DNA of 64,000 nucleotides from Flagellimonas spongiicola (GTDB lineage: Bacteria; Bacteroidota; Bacteroidia; Flavobacteriales; Flavobacteriaceae). Location of the stretch: contig NZ_JAMFMA010000002.1 in NCBI RefSeq assembly GCF_023502425.1, positions 124,001 to 188,000 on the forward strand, given 5' to 3'. A model generated the notes under the pieces. It made no database searches and was not told the origin of the DNA. It saw only the letters and a list, made by a program, of their open reading frames with translations. Below, piece after piece: positions 9,214 to 38,208 of the stretch; positions within the stretch are counted from its first letter, which is position 1, and every line of letters starts with the position of its first letter. The translations under genes were made by a program, and so were the position numbers.

Positions 9214-10830
9214 CTAACCTGTAAAATAGGTTAAAACAATAACCACAATTACGAGTAATAAGACAGATAGGATAATATCCAAAGTAGTAGCACTTTCCTT
9301 ATTCTGAGCGCTATCACTATCAGTCAAAGTACCAAAAGACAATCCTGTAATTGCTGTATAATTTGGGGGATTGGTCAGTAAACTAACACTAATGCATATC
9401 ATTACTGATGCGATGAACATGAAGATGGCCATATGAGCAAAATTAACGGTAGCAAACGACAACATAAAGCCCGTGAGCTCAGACTGATATATTTCCGCCA
9501 ATATTCGCAAGGCAGCAAATCCAAGGCCTGAAATCAAAGTCACGATGGCCGCAATTGAGTTGACTCTTTTCCAAAGTATTCCCAATAAGAAAACTGCCGT
9601 AATTGGAGGTGCTATGTAAGATTGTACGCTCTGTAGGTATTGATAAAGTACGCCACCCCCTATTTTGTCCATTATTGGAATCCAGATTATTCCAAGAACA
9701 ACTACTATGGATGTTGCAATCTTTCCAATTCTCAATAGTTTTTTCTCGTTGGTATTGGGTCTCAATTTTTTATAAATATCAATTGTAAATATGGTGGAAC
9801 AAGAATTGAAAACTGAAGCTAATGAACTCATTAATGCTGCCATAAGTCCACCAGCCACTAGACCTTTTAATCCCACTGGTAATAAGGTTTTTATTAAGAC
9901 AGGAAACACCTCATCACTCTTATCGTAACTTAACACACCCTGTTGGGCCAATGCAAATGCGATAATTCCTGGAATTAAAAAAATGAAGATTGGAAGCAAT
10001 TTCAGATAAGCACCAAAAATAGCTCCCCGGCGCCCAATTTTTATATTATTTGCAGCAAGGGTTCGTTGTACTATATATTGGTCTGTACACCAGTACCAAA
10101 CTCCAACTATTGTTCCTCCAATCAGCATCCCGGTCCAGGGAAAATCCGGGTCGGATATAGGGCGCCACATATTGAAATGCTGACTTCCGGCAATACTCCT
10201 TAACTCTTCCCATCCGCCAACTGCTTGAAGACCTAAATAGGTGATTATAACCGAACCAGCAATCAGAATTACAGTTTGCAAGGTTTCTGTGTATATTACA
10301 GCTTTCATGCCCCCAATGATGGTATATGCACCTGTAAAAATTACAATGCCAATAGCACCGTACCAAAATGGTATTCCTAAAAGTTCGGAAACCACAATAC
10401 CACCAGCATAAATCGTTACAGATACCTTAGTAATCACATAACCTACCAACGAAAAAACCGAAAGAAACCAGCGTGACCTAGCATCAAACCTTTTCTCTAA
10501 GAATTCTGGCATAGTAAAAGCGCCACTTCTAAAATAAAAGGGCAAAAACAACCAGCCTAAAAGCAGTACAATCCATGCATGTAGCTCGTAATGCGCCATA
10601 GGCATTCCAGACTCTGCACCTGTTCCGGCTAAACCTACAACATGCTCTGAACCAATATTTGATGCAAAAATTGAAGCTCCTATCAAGAACCAGCCAACGT
10701 TTCTTCCTGCAAGAAAATAGTCTTCTGTGTTTTTGTTTTTTTGCAAAACCACCCAAATGGCCACTGCTATCAACGCCAGCAAGTAAGCACCAAGTACCCA
10801 CCAGTCTACCGTCTCTAAAATTGATTCCAT
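9214..10830 (-). CDS. Sodium/sugar symporter, SGLT-like (SSS family)
   Basis: 538-residue transporter of the solute:sodium symporter family with about 14 membrane helices. It belongs to the sugar branch: GRNVGWFLIGASIFASNIGSE in the first helices and WYWCTDQYIVQRTLAA in the middle are typical of SGLT/vSGLT-type proteins. It should carry a sugar together with sodium across the inner membrane. The neighbouring genes do not name the sugar. However, the region 170-240 bases upstream carries the same composite element as the region in front of xylBA-lacI (see 10999-11069 and 38128-38208), so xylose is my best guess. It stands alone as a transcription unit. Confidence 0.9.
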   Translation of the reverse strand: MESILETVDWWVLGAYLLALIAVAIWVVLQKNKNTEDYFLAGRNVGWFLIGASIFASNIGSEHVVGLAGTGAESGMPMAHYELHAWIVLLLGWLFLPFYFRSGAFTMPEFLEKRFDARSRWFLSVFSLVGYVITKVSVTIYAGGIVVSELLGIPFWYGAIGIVIFTGAYTIIGGMKAVIYTETLQTVILIAGSVIITYLGLQAVGGWEELRSIAGSQHFNMWRPISDPDFPWTGMLIGGTIVGVWYWCTDQYIVQRTLAANNIKIGRRGAIFGAYLKLLPIFIFLIPGIIAFALAQQGVLSYDKSDEVFPVLIKTLLPVGLKGLVAGGLMAALMSSLASVFNSCSTIFTIDIYKKLRPNTNEKKLLRIGKIATSIVVVLGIIWIPIMDKIGGGVLYQYLQSVQSYIAPPITAVFLLGILWKRVNSIAAIVTLISGLGFAALRILAEIYQSELTGFMLSFATVNFAHMAIFMFIASVMICISVSLLTNPPNYTAITGLSFGTLTDSDSAQNKESATTLDIILSVLLLVIVVIVLTYFTG

Positions 10831-10998
10831 ACTACGCTTTTGAAGAATTGTTCGGACTAATAAAAAGAATGTTCTACCAGCTCCTAGCTGAACAATAGCT
10901 TACAAAATAAAAAATGAGCGGAAAAAAGACTATTCGCGGGATAATATTTGAATTGGTTTCGGCTAAACCATTTGGACACCAAGATCAACAATCAGTGT

Positions 10999-11069
10999 TA
11001 TACTTCTGATTATTAATGTTTTATGATTTATTTCAGTTCGCAAAAAAGTTTCGAAAAGGGTTTCGTAAT
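10999..11069 (-). promoter_or_regulatory. Composite element shared with the xylBA-lacI upstream region
   Basis: On the plus strand the block TATACTTCTGATT (10999-11011) is followed 38 bases later by the start of TTTCGAAA (11049-11056), a CG-centred palindrome, which continues as AGGG and then TTTCGTAATT (11061-11070). The same block, the same palindrome and the same right arm recur at 38128-38200 with the identical 38-base step. The left arm here (TTCGCAAAA, from about 11037) is degenerate compared with TTACGAAAA in the xyl copy. CG-centred palindromes of this kind are typical of LacI-family operators. The element lies 168-240 bases upstream of the symporter start codon, so the promoter position relative to it is uncertain. 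Confidence 0.65.
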
Positions 11070-11093
11070 TTCTTGGCCTTGCGTTGGCAAATC

Positions 11094-11240
11094 CTAAAAA
11101 ATCATTTGAATTAATGATCGATTCAGCTCTCGGAATTTAGACGGGGTCACCCCTGTCTTGGATTTGAAGAGCTTGTTGAAACTTTGCGGATAGTCAAAAC
11201 CAGCCTAATTGTCAGGGACTCGACAATCAAATTATAAAAT
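11094..11240 (-). pseudogene. 3' remnant of an AraC-family regulator gene
   Basis: On the minus strand, 11204 to 11094 reads AGFDYPQSFNKLFKSK, then TGVTPSKFRELNRS, and ends at a TAG (11096-11094). This is the unmistakable last 35 residues of an AraC-type DNA-binding domain. Going upstream the frame hits a stop (TAG, 11207-11205), but the adjacent frame reads VESLTI (about 11224-11207), the LTI that normally precedes the second helix-turn-helix. About five codons (the SEIAY part) are missing, with a shift of frame. Farther upstream no AraC sequence remains. The gene was therefore truncated and frameshifted. It points the same way as the symporter, which it may once have controlled. Confidence 0.75.
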
Positions 11241-11352: not shown

Positions 11353-13629
11353 CTATTTTTTAATTATAGGTATCGTTTTCTTACCATTCAAAGTTTGCAG
11401 CACGACATAATAAATACCTGGAGCTGTGCCTGATGGTAAATCAATGTCTAGATTTCCTTTGGCATTGTTGATTTCACTTTGCAGAATTGTGCCCTTGGAG
11501 ATTTCAACTCCTGACGAATTATTAACAGTATATGCCACAGGACTTGATACACTTTCTGCTACTTTGACCGTAACGGTAGAGTTTACCACCGGATTTGGAA
11601 ATGCAATAGCCTTTTGAATTGAGGAAGCAGCATTAGAAACTGAAAATTGCACTGTAGTTTCCGACGAAGCCCCATCATTATCCCTAACAAATGCCCTAAC
11701 GGTATAATTACCTGCACTTACATTATTAATATAATGCGGCGTGAAATTGGCACCATCCGTATCCACCAATGTTCCATTAACAAAAATCTGGTGAAATACC
11801 ACAGTTCCATCCGCATCGTTAGCATTTAGGGCAACTGTAACAGTACTACCAGGACTAAAACTCTGACCATTTGACGGACTGGTTATGCTAACCGTTGGTG
11901 GTTCATTATCCCCATTACTTGGCGGAGGTGGTGGTGGATTACTTCCCCCAACAGAAAACTGAGTTGTAGTTTCGGCGGAGTTCCCATCATTATCTCTTAC
12001 AAATGCCCTTATCGTATAATTTCCAGCTGCGACATTATTTATATAATGTGGGGTGAAATTGGCACCATCGGTATCAACTAAAATACCATTAACAAAAATT
12101 TGATGGAAAACAACGCTTCCGTCTGAATCACTTGTATTCAAAGCAACAGGTACAATACTGCCGGGATTGAAATTTTGGCCATTGGTTGGGCTTGTAATGG
12201 TTACTGTTGGTATTCCGTTTCCGCCATTGTCAGGAGGAGTAGGATTATCTGGTGGGGTAGGATCATCCGGGGGTGGCGGGTTATTACTTCCTACAGAGAA
12301 TTGAATAGTTGTTTCGGAACTTGCACCATCATTATCTCTTACCAGCGCTCTAACCGTATAATTTCCGGCCGTTGCATTTACGATTCGGTGTGGTGTAAAA
12401 TTAGAACCGTCAGTATCGACCAAGTTACCATTCACAAAAATTTGATGAAACACAACACTACCATCAGAGTCGCCCGTACTCAAGTTTACAGTTACAGTAC
12501 TACCTGGATTGAAATTTTGACCATTATTAGGACTGGTAATACTTACGGTAGGAGGATTGTTTCCGCCATTGTCAGGTGGGGTGGGATCATCTGGAGGGGT
12601 AGGGTCATCCGGCGGCGGCGGGTTATTACTGCCTACGGAGAATTGCACTGTGTTTTCTGAAGTAGCCCCATCATTATCCCTTACCACTGCCCTAACGGTA
12701 TAATTCCCAGCACTTGCACTTGATATTATATGTGGCGTATAACCTCCGCCATCAGTATCGGCAAGAGTGCCGTTTACATAAATTTGATGACTTACAATAG
12801 AACCATCAGAATCATTTGCATTTAAACCTATAGATATGTTGCTCCCTACGTTGAAGTTTTGACCGTTTGTTGGGTTTGTGATATTCACGGTAGGAGCGGT
12901 ATTTTCGCCGTCATCATCAGATGGTGGCGGGGGTGGCGGTGGCGGTGGCGTACCACCATTGCAATTTGTTTGCGCTCTCGATATGTCAGCTGCTTGTTGA
13001 AGTGAATACTGACTCTCATTATAAATAACCATTCTGTCTATGAAGTGCGCGTCTGATCTCGCCGATATTTGAATGGTGTAAACTCCTGCAGAATTAAATT
13101 GAGCATAAATTGGATGACCGTCATTGTCACTTGTGGTTGCTTGCCAACTCCAATTGGAAGAACTCACATAAACTTTGAACCATCCTCCAGAACTTGATCC
13201 GTTTGGATTTGGGGTTTTCCCAGAACCTACCGGATAGATGGTACTACTGCCCCGTCTACCAAAGAAATCATTGGCATCAGGAAACTTCAACCATGTGTCA
13301 TTATGCTCTGTAAAATTGGTTCCTTTACCCGATCTACTCCGCCATATAAATCGATAAGTACCGGGATTATTGATTCGAATTCGATAGGATATTGTTCCGT
13401 TACCTGGTGAATTGAAATAACTAGGTCCGCGCCAAGTAATAAAACCGCTACCGGTATAACCAGAAGTACTGGTCTCAACATTCCAACTGCTTGGAGTTGC
13501 GCCTGATTCCATTTCGTAGACGGCAATCCCGTTTACTTCTTCGAAATCAGCACCGTTACATTGTGCAAAACCCTGTTGAGTTAGGGCAATAGCAAAAAAT
13601 GCAACAAAAAGAGTAATTTTTGTTTTCAT
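11353..13629 (-). CDS. Secreted multidomain protein with four Ig-like repeats and T9SS tail
   Basis: 758 residues. A signal peptide (cleavage after GFAQ) leads to an N-terminal beta domain of about 200 residues that starts EEVNGIAVYEMESG and resembles a carbohydrate-binding (CBM6-like) module. A nine-proline linker follows, then four Ig-like domains of about 90 residues (each from TVxITxPxNGQxF to TxQFSV), joined by linkers rich in PPPP, DDPTPP and DNGG. The last 80 residues (AIAFPNPVVNS to IYYVVLQTLNGKKTIPIIKK) are a Por/type IX sorting domain, so it is exported across the outer membrane and probably attached to the surface. No catalytic domain is recognised; sugar or surface binding is the likely job. 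A TATATTTG box at 13695-13702 (minus) is a candidate -7 promoter element. Confidence 0.82.
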   Translation of the reverse strand: MKTKITLFVAFFAIALTQQGFAQCNGADFEEVNGIAVYEMESGATPSSWNVETSTSGYTGSGFITWRGPSYFNSPGNGTISYRIRINNPGTYRFIWRSRSGKGTNFTEHNDTWLKFPDANDFFGRRGSSTIYPVGSGKTPNPNGSSSGGWFKVYVSSSNWSWQATTSDNDGHPIYAQFNSAGVYTIQISARSDAHFIDRMVIYNESQYSLQQAADISRAQTNCNGGTPPPPPPPPPSDDDGENTAPTVNITNPTNGQNFNVGSNISIGLNANDSDGSIVSHQIYVNGTLADTDGGGYTPHIISSASAGNYTVRAVVRDNDGATSENTVQFSVGSNNPPPPDDPTPPDDPTPPDNGGNNPPTVSITSPNNGQNFNPGSTVTVNLSTGDSDGSVVFHQIFVNGNLVDTDGSNFTPHRIVNATAGNYTVRALVRDNDGASSETTIQFSVGSNNPPPPDDPTPPDNPTPPDNGGNGIPTVTITSPTNGQNFNPGSIVPVALNTSDSDGSVVFHQIFVNGILVDTDGANFTPHYINNVAAGNYTIRAFVRDNDGNSAETTTQFSVGGSNPPPPPPSNGDNEPPTVSITSPSNGQSFSPGSTVTVALNANDADGTVVFHQIFVNGTLVDTDGANFTPHYINNVSAGNYTVRAFVRDNDGASSETTVQFSVSNAASSIQKAIAFPNPVVNSTVTVKVAESVSSPVAYTVNNSSGVEISKGTILQSEINNAKGNLDIDLPSGTAPGIYYVVLQTLNGKKTIPIIKK
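11637..12905 (-). repeat. Four tandem Ig-like coding repeats
   Basis: Four in-frame repeats of about 265 bases, near 11637-11900, 11953-12213, 12293-12555 and 12650-12905, each encoding VFHQIFVNG (or a close variant), DTDG, TPH and AGNYTVRA segments. The third and fourth (first two on the plus strand) are almost identical over FVNG through FTPHYINNV. The linkers between copies 1/2 and 2/3 are also near-identical proline/aspartate stretches. Repeats of this similarity are prone to recombination, so repeat number may vary between strains. Confidence 0.85.
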
Positions 13630-34131: not shown

Positions 34132-35151
34132 TTAGGGGATGTTTTTTGTAGATTCCCTAGTGATTAGCGTGGTTTTAACGGTTTTGGTCGTAAATGGCAT
34201 TAAGCCATCATGCTCAATTCTATCAATAAGTATGTCCGCTGCCAATTCCCCAATATATTTACCGTGTTGACTGACCATGGTGAGCGATGGCGAAACGTAC
34301 TTGGATAATCTGCCATTGGTGAAGCCCACAACAGCTATCTCATCAGGAACTTGAACGCCTTTAAGTTTAAGGATGTTCAATGTATCAACAGCTGTAATTT
34401 CATCAAGTGCAATAATACCGTCCACGTCATTATTTGCGATTAAAAGGGCTATCAACACCTGCAAATCGTCCTTTTTACCAACTTTGACCAGTAATCGATC
34501 TTCAAAAGTTATATTAGCTTCTTTAAGCGCTTTCTGGTACCCAGCAACACGAAGTTTTCCAACACTTGAATTGGATATGCTAGAAATGACAGCTATTTTC
34601 TTACAGCCTGTTTCTACCAAATATTTGGTGGTTTTATAGCCTGCCTCAAAATCATCTACTACAATTTTGTCACAATCCAACTGATCAGTTACTCGATCGA
34701 ACATCACCATGGGAATTTGGTTTTCAATCAAATCCTGTAAGTGGGTCAAGTCTTTTTTGGCTTGGGTTTCTTCAGACAAAGACATGATTATGCCATCTAC
34801 CGTTCCTGAACTTAGCAAATCCACAGTCTGGCGCTCTTTCTGCAACGATTCATCAGAAATACAACTAATGATTCCGTAGCCTCGGGAATTGGCTTTCTGC
34901 TCTATCCCATAAAACACCTGGGTAAAGAAGTAATTTAAAATATTGGGTACGATCACACCAATGGTTTTGGTGCTTTTTTTGAGTAAGCTTAAGGCAATAT
35001 GATTTGGTCGGTAATGAACTTCTTGGGCAAAGTCCTGAATCTTCAATTTTAGTTCGCTACTTATTTCATGGCTGTCATTAATAGCTTTGGACACCGTTGA
35101 AATTGAAACGCCAAAATGTGTTGCGATATCTTTCAGGGTTGTCTTTTTCAT
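34132..35151 (-). CDS. LacI-family transcriptional regulator of the xylose genes
   Basis: 339 residues. N-terminal LacI helix-turn-helix (TTLKDIATHFGVSISTVSKAINDSHEIS, about 3-30) with the hinge helix region (YRPNHIALSLLKK), then a periplasmic-binding-like sensor domain (TIGVIVPNILNYFFTQVFYGIEQKA through DEIAVVGFTNGRLSKYVSPSLTMVSQ). The gene follows xylA by 41 bases in the order xylB-xylA-lacI. It is the natural candidate for binding the CG-centred palindromes at 38167-38197 and 11049-11069. The effector may be xylose or xylulose, but this cannot be read from sequence. Confidence 0.9.
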   Translation of the reverse strand: MKKTTLKDIATHFGVSISTVSKAINDSHEISSELKLKIQDFAQEVHYRPNHIALSLLKKSTKTIGVIVPNILNYFFTQVFYGIEQKANSRGYGIISCISDESLQKERQTVDLLSSGTVDGIIMSLSEETQAKKDLTHLQDLIENQIPMVMFDRVTDQLDCDKIVVDDFEAGYKTTKYLVETGCKKIAVISSISNSSVGKLRVAGYQKALKEANITFEDRLLVKVGKKDDLQVLIALLIANNDVDGIIALDEITAVDTLNILKLKGVQVPDEIAVVGFTNGRLSKYVSPSLTMVSQHGKYIGELAADILIDRIEHDGLMPFTTKTVKTTLITRESTKNIP

Positions 35152-35192: not shown

Positions 35193-36518
35193 TTAACTAT
35201 ACTGATTCAATATATTCTCATAAAGTTCTTGTTTACCACTGATTTGCTCAGGTTCGCCTTGTTCTTGAGCATAGTCGTACAAATCCGTCAAGGAAAGTTT
35301 CCCTGCTGTATACGAAGCTCCTTTTCCAGAATCAAAGGAAGAATAGCGTTTGGACAACAATGATTCGTAGGGTGAAGATCTTAATACCTCATCCGCAATC
35401 AACAACCCTCTTGCAAAGGTATCAGCGCCTCCAATATGTGCCAGGAATATGTCCTCTAAATCCGTTGAGTTTCTTCGCGTTTTGGCATCAAAATTTATTC
35501 CGCCACCTTGAAGTCCACCAGCTTTCAAAAATACCAGCATAGCTTCCGTGGTTTCCAATACATTATTCGGGAATTGATCGGTATCCCATCCGTTTTGATA
35601 ATCTCCTCTATTGGCATCAATGCTTCCTAACATGCCAGCATTAGCGGCAACTTGAAGTTCGTGTTGAAATGTATGCTGTGCTAGCGTCGCATGATTTACT
35701 TCTATATTAAGTTTAAAATCATTCTCCAAACCGTATTCCTTTATGGTGTTTATGGAAGTGGCGCAGTCAAAATCGTATTGATGTTTGGTAGGCTCCATAG
35801 GTTTTGGCTCAATAAAGAATGTGCCCTTAAAACCTTGACTACGGGCATAGTCTTTCGCCATATTTAGAAACCTACCGATATTGTCTTGCTCCAATTTCAT
35901 ATTGGTGTTCAAAAGCGACATATATCCTTCTCTACCTCCCCAAAACACATAGTTCTCCCCATTTAGGGCAATGGTGGCGTCCAAGGCAATTTTTACCTGA
36001 GCGCCGGCTCGAGCCACAACATCAAAATTAGGGTTGGTCGCGGCCCCGTTCATGTATCTAGGATGCGAAAAACAGTTGGAAGTTCCCCACAACAATCGGA
36101 CACCAGACGCTTCTTGTTTTTGCTGTAAATAGGCCACGATTTCCTGAATTCGTTTTTCAGACTCACTTAATGTCTTGGCCTCATCTACCAAATCATAATC
36201 GTGGAAACAGTAATAATCAAAGCCCATTTTTGTTACAAACTCAAAAGCCGCGTCGGCCTTTTGTTTTGCAGCCTCTACTGGATCAGTAGCGGTTGCCCAT
36301 GGAAACTCTTTGGTGCCAGGCCCAAAAGGATCTCCACCAGTTCCGCATAGTGTATGCCAATAGGCCATAGCAAACTTAAAATGTTCACGCATGGTTTTCC
36401 CTGCCACTACTTGCTCTGGGTTATAAAATTTAAAGGACATGGGGTTGTCCGATTCCTTTCCTTCATACATGATTTCACCAATCCCTTTAAAATATTCCGT
36501 ATCTCCAATTAGTGCCAT
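35193..36518 (-). CDS. xylA: Xylose isomerase
   Basis: 441 residues, the usual length of class II xylose isomerase, which converts D-xylose to D-xylulose in the cytoplasm with two divalent metal ions. Landmarks: [11 protein letters not shown] at the start, [11 protein letters not shown] (catalytic His-Asp pair about 103), [52 protein letters not shown] (metal Glu), NVELNHATLA-like [19 protein letters not shown], and [17 protein letters not shown]. It starts 1 base after xylB ends, clearly co-translated. The upstream operator region at 38128-38208 serves the whole xylB-xylA-lacI unit. Confidence 0.97.
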
Positions 36519-36519
36519 T

Positions 36520-38004
36520 TTACGATTTGTTTATGATTAAGTCTAATTCTTTTTTCCAATTATTATATGCCAACTCATATGCCTTTTTATCCTTAAAGGG
36601 CATATAGGTCATCACATGGTCGTTTTCCATATATTTTGAAAAACTTTGGTATCCATTTGTTGTAATTTCACAAGCCCTAGCAGCTCCTATTGCCCCAGTG
36701 GTATTGTAAATTTCTATCTCCTGTTGTATCAATGTTGCGATGGTATTTGAAAAAATTTCCGAACGAAAAAGATTGTCATTACCCGCCCGTATTACGTTAG
36801 CAGCGATTTCATCCGATTTCAGAATTTCCATGCCATAAACGAATGAAAACGCAATTCCTTCAAGTGTTGCCCTACATAAATGCGCTTTGGTATGCCGATT
36901 TAAATCCAAATTCAAGATTCTTGTACCTACATCTTGATTTAACAGCATGCGTTCTGCGCCGTTACCAAAAGGAATAACACAAACACCGTCGGACCCAATA
37001 GCTATAGCCCCGGCCAAGCTGTTCATTTCTTCATAGGATGATACCGATAAATTATTCAGCAACCATCTGTACTGAATACCAGCTCCATTAATACATAGCA
37101 ATTTGCCAATATTGCGTTGGGTGTTTTTGAGATAATTCACATGGGCAAAATTGTTCACCCTTGCGCTTTCCTTCACTGAAAGATTATCGGTAACTGCATA
37201 AACAACACCGGAAGTTCCACCTGTGGCCGCAACTTCACCAGGATTGAACACATTTAAAGAAAGGGCATTATTAGGCTGATCACCAGCCCTATATAAAATG
37301 GGTGTCCCCTTCAACAGGCCGCTCTCCTTGGCACCTTTCTCGGACACACTGCTTTGTACAGCGAATGTATCCACTACTTCTGGTACCAACGTTTTTGAAA
37401 TCCCAAATGCATCTAAAATATCTTCTGAGACATCTTCATCTTGAAAATTCCAAAAAATTCCTTCAGACAGCCCAGAAATTGTAGTTTGATAATCATCAGT
37501 GAATTTGAATGCCAAGTAATCCCCCGGAAGCATGAACTTATGCACCTTTTTATAGGTTTCCGATTCATTTTCCTTGACCCAACCCAATTTGGCCGCAGTG
37601 AAGTTTGCTGGAGAATTCAATAACTCGCTATCACATTTAGCAGCGCCAATTTTATGGTATGCCCGATTTCCAATTTCCACAGCTCTACTATCACACCAAA
37701 TAATGGAATTTCTCAGCGGTTTCCCTTCCGTATCCACTACTACTAAACCATGCATTTGATAAGCTATTCCGATTCCGAGAATATCTTTTGGTTTGATTGA
37801 AGCCGATTGGAGGATTTTTGAAATACCTTGACACACCAAATTCCACCAAGTTTCGGGATCTTGCTCTGCCCAGCCCTTTTCAGGGGCATGCATGGACATT
37901 TCCTGCTCGGGTTCTTGAACGACCATAACACTCTTACCAGTACTTTGTGCTACCAAGGCAATTTTTATCGAAGAGCTTCCGAGATCGATTCCTAAATAAT
38001 ACAT
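36520..38004 (-). CDS. xylB: Xylulokinase (FGGY family)
   Basis: 494-residue FGGY carbohydrate kinase that phosphorylates D-xylulose. Visible: [13 protein letters not shown] (ATP phosphate loop, residues 5-17), [34 protein letters not shown], and [11 protein letters not shown] with the catalytic Asp near residue 236; the C-terminal ATP-binding parts include GGTSGVVYA and the late [16 protein letters not shown] segment, in place of the more common GGGAKS. Next to xylA the function is secure. A TACATTTG box (38037-38030 on the minus strand, an exact TAnnTTTG) lies 26 bases upstream of the start and is a candidate -7 element; the shared composite operator lies farther upstream. Confidence 0.95.
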
Positions 38005-38127
38005 TGATTACGAATTTGTTGAGTCCTATCAAATGTAAAGAATGCGATATCGAAAAACACTTTTGACAGCAAACAAAACCTGAATTTGGCTTTCCTTGGT
38101 ATAGCTGTAAGGTGGTTATGACAATTG

Positions 38128-38208
38128 TATACTTCTGATTTACAGCTTCTTAAAAATCAATCCATTTTACGAAAAGTTTTCGAAAAGGTTTTCGTAATTA
38201 TTTCGTAA
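38128..38208 (-). promoter_or_regulatory. Composite operator upstream of xylB-xylA-lacI
   Basis: The plus strand carries TATACTTCTGATT (38128-38140), then a nested palindrome: outer arms TTACGAAAA (38167-38175) and TTTTCGTAA (38189-38197), centre TTTTCGAAAA (38177-38186). A further TTTCGTAA follows at 38201-38208. The step from block to palindrome centre is the same 38 bases as at 10999-11056. CG-centred palindromes are characteristic of LacI-family operators, and lacI is the last gene of this unit. It lies 124-205 bases upstream of the xylB start, farther than a simple promoter-blocking site, so looping, activation or an upstream promoter are possible. Confidence 0.72.

Follow-up and report, generated by a model that had tools for sequence, protein, structure and literature searches.

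A three-part promoter shared by the xylose operon and a detached sugar symporter gene of Flagellimonas spongiicola, probably under joint control by a LacI-family protein

Introduction

Most of the studied members of the LacI family are repressors. In the local sugar regulons of this family, as set out in the cited excerpts, the regulator gene adjoins its catabolic operon, the site is an even palindrome with a central CG that lies on the promoter, more than 75% of the sites are located 140-30 bp ahead of the start codon, and a 13-bp class of overlapping sites is reported (PMC4052901). Activation by members of the family is already known from at least two systems, according to the parts of the sources cited: GalR bound at OE activates gal P2 in E. 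coli (PMC4693257), and FixV of Mesorhizobium loti is a LacI/GalR-family activator (PMC3538637). For FixV-nifA2, the authors of the latter suggest that the gene gained FixV control by translocation of a FixV-regulated promoter. In Bacteroides thetaiotaomicron, the local xylose operon regulon of XylR, an NrtR-family protein, includes an extra conserved second motif, TATGTTnTAnAACATA, which was assigned to a Crp-family protein (PMC3878776).

The xyl operon analysed here resembles each of these systems, as they are given in those excerpts, and differs from each. As in the local LacI-family regulons (PMC4052901), the regulator adjoins its catabolic operon and the palindrome is even, and the half-sites overlap about 12 bp apart, near the 13-bp class; however, the central CG is shared by just 4 of 21 sites, 17 having CC/GG, and the site lies about 160 bp before the predicted start, with a second element at a fixed distance, rather than on the promoter. 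The LacI-family protein, the HU-binding site and the promoters on different DNA faces of E. coli gal (PMC4693257) also form a likeness, whereas gal has two operators, one of them downstream of both promoters, and here there is one, far upstream, with no conserved second. The suggested translocation of a regulated promoter is shared with FixV-nifA2 (PMC3538637), but in that case promoter and activator gene moved together, whereas here the regulator stayed in the operon, and the genes and the phylum are different. The B. thetaiotaomicron regulon (PMC3878776) is likewise a local xylose operon regulon with a second motif; here, in contrast, the operon's regulator belongs to the LacI family, so that this is not an NrtR-type XylR regulon, and the second motif is TTGATWATCAR. 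Among the matches listed in a search of the open-access literature, no description of a LacI xylose regulon of this kind in flavobacteria was found.

Results

Shared upstream regions of the xyl operon and the symporter gene

The sites, spacings, synteny and co-occurrence reported in this section were computed directly. In the 64,000-nucleotide stretch of F. spongiicola DNA that was analysed (the window; positions 124001-188000 of contig C6), the 72 bp upstream of a symporter gene (10999-11070) and the region upstream of the xyl operon (38128-38199) are identical at 52 of 72 positions without gaps, whereas the next-best match of the symporter 72-mer on either strand of the window has 39 of 72. 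Comparison of the two upstream regions by blastn gave 72 gapless bases with 72% identity (E = 4e-4). The block TATACTTCTGATT is exact at 10999-11011 and 38128-38140 and occurs with two mismatches at seven places, TTTCGAAA lies at 11049-11056 and 38178-38185, with five copies in the window against 2.5 expected, and TTTCGTAATT is found in the window only at 11061-11070 and 38190-38199. The offsets are equal at both loci, with 38 from the end of the block to the start of TTTCGAAA and 12 from TTTCGAAA to TTTCGTAATT. The original prediction, that these strings recur at the two loci with an identical 38-base step while the sequence between them differs, is therefore borne out by exact matches and equal offsets, and by the filler from element 2 (see below) to the -33 region, which is only 28% identical between the two promoters. 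The filler between operator and element 2 is 60% identical between them, versus a median of 48% with the relatives.

Across the 3.7 Mb genome, the block followed by TTTCGAAA at a gap of 30-45 occurs at just these two places, and a reversed control pattern occurs at none, so that the genome-wide search for the spaced composite leaves the prediction standing. When 1000 random AT-rich 72-mers were drawn from the window, nine had at least 48 matches; eight of these come from Big_7, a gene that carries repeats (11353-13629), and the remaining one is the symporter/xyl pair itself. By these comparisons, the upstream pair is a real, conserved regulatory module, and the conservation of its parts and their spacing in relatives supports the predicted functional composite site.

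The operator

In an alignment of 20 relatives and both F. spongiicola promoters, the conserved dyad is CGAAAACCTTTTCG. TTTCGAAA and TTTCGTAATT are the two halves of this operator in window orientation, and the centre of the dyad falls between them. TTTCGAAA alone, which had been taken for the operator palindrome, was ruled out on this ground; the two strings jointly form one dyad. The LacI-type operator of the xyl operon, CGAAAACCTTTTCG, located by alignment and by the operator model, lies at 38181..38194 on the minus strand and is followed by an overlapping further half-site. That of the symporter promoter, CGAAACCCTTTTCG, lies at 11052..11065 on the minus strand, and the two core operators are identical at 13 of 14 positions. 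The operator model was trained on 21 xylB operators (20 distinct sites of relatives and the F. spongiicola xylB site), leaving out the symporter site, which nevertheless scored 30.9, inside the training range of 22.8-36.9. No unrelated place in the window scored higher than 10.3. Loci with no operator by pattern, namely L131 and L132 and, in other genera, L137, L138, L140-L144, L147, L150, L151, L158, L161 and L181, were left out of the alignment. The central CG of an even palindrome is present in L118, L122, L136 and L139. Through the overlapping half-site, a pattern search finds a second dyad about 12 bp off in both F. spongiicola promoters and in 10 of the 20 relatives.

With at most one mismatch, the core dyad occurs at six places in the F. 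spongiicola genome: the two promoters described here, the locus of a LacI paralog, and sites at or before three further genes, read from sequence as alpha/beta hydrolase-like, aldehyde-dehydrogenase-like and phosphoenolpyruvate carboxykinase-like. With at most two mismatches, the bare dyad turns up 48 and 48 times in this genome, less often than its reversed control (130 and 137), so that the dyad alone is not diagnostic, whereas the arrangement is. A perfect 22-base palindrome, TTTACGAAAACGTTTTCGTAAA (C7:371601, L094:1501), with an operator-model score of 31.1, lies about 134 bp before the alpha/beta hydrolase-like ORF. One-mismatch LacI-type dyads are seen at the start of the phosphoenolpyruvate carboxykinase-like gene (C6:404747, L098) and before the aldehyde-dehydrogenase-like gene (C1:915020, L095), hinting at LacI control of central metabolism.

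Element 2

An unguided motif search was run on the spacers of 21 promoters. It yielded a single element, TAA-n5-TTGATWATCAR, present in 21/21 at +42 to +45 relative to the start of the operator. Its information content was 13.3 bits, compared with 9.1-9.9 in eight shuffled controls (12 restarts, versus 40 for the real set). The block TATACTTCTGATT, previously assigned to the LacI site, turned out to be the right edge of this second conserved element. Element 2, including the block, lies on the minus strand at 38128..38155 in the xyl promoter (by the motif search and the element-2 model) and at 10999..11026 in the symporter promoter, where it is the best position for the element-2 model in the scanned stretch, with a low score of 3.9, below all 20 model sites (6.9-22.3). 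For seven promoters outside the model (five new relatives, the F. spongiicola symporter promoter and its xylB promoter, the last of which was in the discovery set), the best scanned position was the matching place, at +39 or +40, in 7/7, and only 0-4 of 500 shuffles did as well there (three for the symporter promoter and four for L229).

Element 2 as a promoter in its own right was ruled out, as inspection by eye revealed no consistent TAnnTTTG there in the relatives. The E. coli IHF consensus is WATCARNNNNTTR. Within element 2, 15 of 22 promoters match it at +53 to +56 with no more than one mismatch; in the remaining seven, its best match lies elsewhere or has two mismatches. Two HU/IHF-family genes are present in the F. 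spongiicola genome. Alternatively, element 2 might be the site of a Crp-like co-activator; one has been proposed for the xyl regulon of B. thetaiotaomicron (PMC3878776), although its motif differs.

The -7 box and the spacing rule

A third promoter part, absent from the original prediction, is a flavobacterial -7 box about 155 bp past the operator. In Flavobacterium psychrophilum, the box TAnnTTTG is placed at -12 to -5 in the cited part of PMC9723704. The box of the xyl operon, TACATTTG, lies at 38030..38037 on the minus strand, with a predicted start near 38025 and a 5' leader of about 21 nt. For the symporter, the candidate box TTATTTTG (10903..10910, minus strand), which has one mismatch to TAnnTTTG, lies 155 bp after the operator start, with a predicted start near 10898. 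The operator centre is at about -162 from the predicted start in the xyl promoter and at about -160 in the symporter promoter. A second possible symporter promoter, CATTCTTTTTATTAG (10857-10864, minus strand), is found 34 bp before the ATG, a position relative to the ATG like that of the xylB promoter.

The distance from the operator start to the -7 box is 154-160 bp in 19/21 promoters, and that from element 2 to the box is 112-115 bp in 19/21. In L118 and L119, these distances are 145 and 147 bp, and 103 and 104 bp, respectively, about one helical turn less. From element 2 to the box, all five test loci have 115 and the F. spongiicola symporter promoter has 112; the latter, which was outside all training, carries its parts at the same positions as the relatives. 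The first base of the operator lies 175-228 bp before the ATG. Spacing is held to the promoter and not to the gene, because L136, from another lineage, keeps 158 from operator to box despite 70 from box to ATG (48 in L139 and 27-33 in most). Since the filler of the F. spongiicola xylB promoter is just 32% identical to that of the relatives (median), indels would be expected if the distance were unconstrained; shared descent also contributes to the kept spacing.

A strict three-part pattern was found at eight places in 71 genus genomes, 8/8 of them at the xyl operon by position, and its reversed control at none; the pattern was drawn from these same promoters, only G026 being new. It misses both F. 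spongiicola sites, because their element 2 is without the pattern's last T. A relaxed operator-plus-box pattern gave 31 matches in the 71 genomes, assigned by position to the xyl operon (20), a LacI paralog locus (7) and elsewhere (4). As its reversed control gave 20, the relaxed pattern is not specific by count alone, and it misses the F. spongiicola symporter promoter because the box there is TTATTTTG.

The symporter gene and its relocation

The xyl operon consists of xylB, for xylulokinase (36520..38004; TIGR01312, E 1.7e-89, 300.6 bits, under its cut-off of 380.25), xylA, for xylose isomerase (35193..36518; TIGR02630, 671.3 bits, above cut-off), and, after a gap of 41 bp, a LacI-family gene (34132..35151; PF00356 and Peripla_BP_3 above cut-off), the proposed regulator of both promoters on account of its co-occurrence with the operator. 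The detached gene (9214..10830; on the minus strand, like the three others) encodes an SGLT-like sodium:sugar symporter (SSF), a probable xylose importer (PF00474, E 2e-84, 284.3 bits). The closest solved structures are those of sodium/glucose cotransporters 1 and 2, together with 2xq2 and 3dh4 of the bacterial cotransporter vSGLT, and the E values against SGLT1 (1.2e-106) and 2xq2 (3e-83) place the protein in the SSF family and in the SGLT type.

Twenty same-genus loci were fetched for synteny. An SSF ortholog, 86-90% identical, comes after xylA within the xyl operon in 15/20, followed by a linked lacI in 14 of these 15, with about 1.1 kb between them in L113, L114, L116 and L120; L131 has SSF without a linked lacI. 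Five loci (L121, L125, L127, L130 and L132) have xylB-xylA-lacI without SSF. lacI is thus encoded with the regulated operon in 19/20 loci, L131 being the exception. In the F. spongiicola genome, the detached symporter gene, about 27 kb from the xyl operon, is the sole SSF match at E <= 1e-100. As SSF sits in the xyl operon in 15/20 loci, the detached symporter is very probably the xylose importer; this role, assigned to the orphan gene by the original prediction, is supported by the xylB-xylA-SSF-lacI synteny of the relatives.

The neighbours of the detached gene are M19 peptidase, DUF6702 and HupE-like genes. Around the M19-peptidase gene group of seven relatives, no SSF match lies within 1.5 kb, suggesting that SSF moved into its present site in this lineage. 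Just upstream of the symporter operator lies a remnant of an AraC-family C-terminus (11100..11204, minus strand; PF12833 profile positions 54-79, E 1.9e-5, below cut-off), which, to judge from this match, points to rearrangement where the symporter gene now sits; no source gene of the remnant was found. A search of 30 SSF loci (L033-L062), whose flanks of 1.5 kb are too short to reach the operator of an intact operon, found no detached symporter under the operator elsewhere: the sole site above 17 besides that of F. spongiicola is in L038 (17.5), and this is the place found inside lacI in L122.

Co-occurrence of the operator with the linked lacI

The upstream regions of 53 xylB genes were scored, 25 with a LacI of at least 48% identity in the locus and 28 without. 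The operator score was at least 22.8 in 22/25 lacI-bearing regions (20/23 distinct genomes; L133 and L174, which repeat L129 and L126, are kept in the former count), and the loci without a good site were L181 (17.9), L132 (9.0) and L138 (1.6). Among the 28 regions without a linked lacI, no score exceeded 11.1; L172 enters this set twice, and L135 is truncated, which leaves 27 usable. The 22/25 count holds partly by construction, because 20 distinct sites and that of F. spongiicola trained the model; the 0/28 count and five later loci are free of this circularity. Among ten later lacI loci, xylA is present in five (L224-L227 and L229), each of which carries an operator scoring 23.8-28.0 in the matching position; the other five (L228 and L230-L233) have lacI but no xylA, xylB or operator in the stretch. 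L224 (G051) and L229 (G026) retain all three promoter parts before xylA-lacI, with no xylB match in the stretch (tblastn, E 1e-10). In L230-L233, the LacI encoded beside oxidoreductase-like genes belongs to a second subfamily, at 56-58% to that of the xyl operon, and no xyl operator lies in the stretch.

Among 30 xylB loci (L003-L032), 14 have no site above 14. Twelve of the genomes concerned are without a LacI of at least 50%, and G044 is L132 again. The remaining one, G006, has an operator-less xylB (L018) and a 57% LacI on another contig beside other sugar genes (L230), which counts against a simple rule that the operator tracks LacI. The operator tracks the operon-linked lacI. On this co-occurrence, the predicted control of both loci by one LacI protein is plausible.

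Discussion

The arrangement that we favour, and hold to be fairly probable, is a LacI operator, element 2 and a sigma-A type -7 box, with the xyl LacI as activator of both loci and a copied promoter on a relocated symporter gene. We infer binding by the xyl LacI, xylose as the effector, activation, bending and copying. The LacI-family protein encoded after xylA would bind the operator at both promoters and respond to xylose or a derivative, jointly controlling xylB-xylA-lacI and the relocated symporter gene. From about 160 bp upstream of the predicted start, it would probably act as an activator, contacting RNA polymerase through DNA that is bent or looped at element 2 by an HU/IHF-type protein or a co-activator bound there. 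The symporter gene would have left the operon in this lineage and be expressed from a copy of the operon promoter, so that the two loci are probably still under joint control. The imperfect -7 box of the symporter promoter and the nearer second candidate promoter count against this explanation, as do the low element-2 score at the symporter, the three lacI-bearing loci that have no good site, the operator-less xylB of G006, and the failure of the strict pattern to recover either F. spongiicola site.

Activation is suggested because the operator lies off the promoter, no conserved second operator turned up in 20 promoters scanned as far as 500 bp into the gene, and the spacing is kept, with shortenings by about one turn in two species. 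Weak operator matches recur at nt 276 of xylB, with scores of 12.4 (L125, the best), 9.6 (L128) and down to -23.9, and these were rejected as a second operator, because they track the protein motif GxPLRK and vary over that range. With the operator clear of the promoter and no conserved partner in the region scanned, the arrangement favours action at a distance over simple blocking or two-operator looping. The same operator and the same LacI might instead serve ordinary repression from far upstream, through a loop or by keeping an activator off element 2, with release by xylose. As most family members studied are repressors and the nt 276 matches do recur, this deserves weight, but those matches fail in many loci, including that of F. 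spongiicola (-10.8). The overlapping half-sites resemble the sites overlapping by about 13 bp of some LacI regulators in the cited excerpt (PMC4052901), whereas the operator, at its distance from the predicted start and from the ATG, falls outside the 140-30 bp range given there for most LacI sites. We therefore regard repression as rather unlikely. More specifically, and only tentatively, the favoured arrangement may be one in which a long-range, helix-phased LacI-family activator of a sigma-A promoter acts from about 160 bp upstream, with an IHF/HU-like or co-activating protein bending the DNA at element 2, the three-part unit having been carried over as a modular copy to a gene that had moved out of its operon.

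The 13-base block is identical at 13/13 positions between the two F. spongiicola promoters, the only one of 231 pairs for which this holds at a fixed offset (next best 10/13); the offset was unadjusted for shifts of 1-2 bases in some relatives, so that their identity is understated. The filler beyond the block retains a slight similarity between the two (alignment score reached by 7/300 shuffles). Because the 13-mer is identical in this pair alone, one promoter was perhaps copied and its filler then decayed, and common descent of the two appears likelier than convergence. The original prediction had excluded a recent duplication; the diverged filler on which it relied stands, but the origin that it implied is probably wrong, the uniquely identical block suggesting a copied promoter. 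That same identity, together with outer half-sites (by eye), element 2 and -7 box that are all weaker in the symporter copy, would also suit a mere leftover of a promoter duplication, the symporter copy being out of use. This is improbable, as the core operator and the spacings have been kept while much of the filler has diverged, the symporter frame is intact with 86-90% identity, and the genome has no other SSF match at the threshold above.

Three LacI-family genes are present in the F. spongiicola genome, and one of the paralogs (C6:344213-345220) shares the recognition-helix start VSISTVSKA with the xyl LacI; between it and a susC-like gene lies a dyad, CGAAACCGTTTTCG, similar to the xyl operator. 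Exclusive binding by the xyl LacI is for these reasons an assumption on our part. The operator might be bound mainly by this susC-linked paralog, or several LacI proteins might read it as a wider sugar signal, and 7 of the 31 relaxed-pattern matches in the genus adjoin such a paralog. However, 69/71 genus genomes have a LacI match (E <= 1e-60), mostly of 43-49% among the matches listed, yet the xylB operator goes with the xyl-linked LacI, and L131 (G103) has LacI genes of 45-46%, no linked one and no operator. We give this possibility little credence. Chance likeness of AT-rich intergenic DNA can be dismissed: although the individual pieces are short and TTTCGAAA alone recurs in the window, the genome-unique composite, the margin of the 72-base match over the next best, the random 72-mer control and the conservation in relatives rule it out.

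Control of transcription in Bacteroidota outside the gut genera is, to our knowledge, little known. The locus described here would provide a xylose regulon that is clean and testable and whose spacing rule has been measured, and an example of a gene that left its operon yet probably kept its control.
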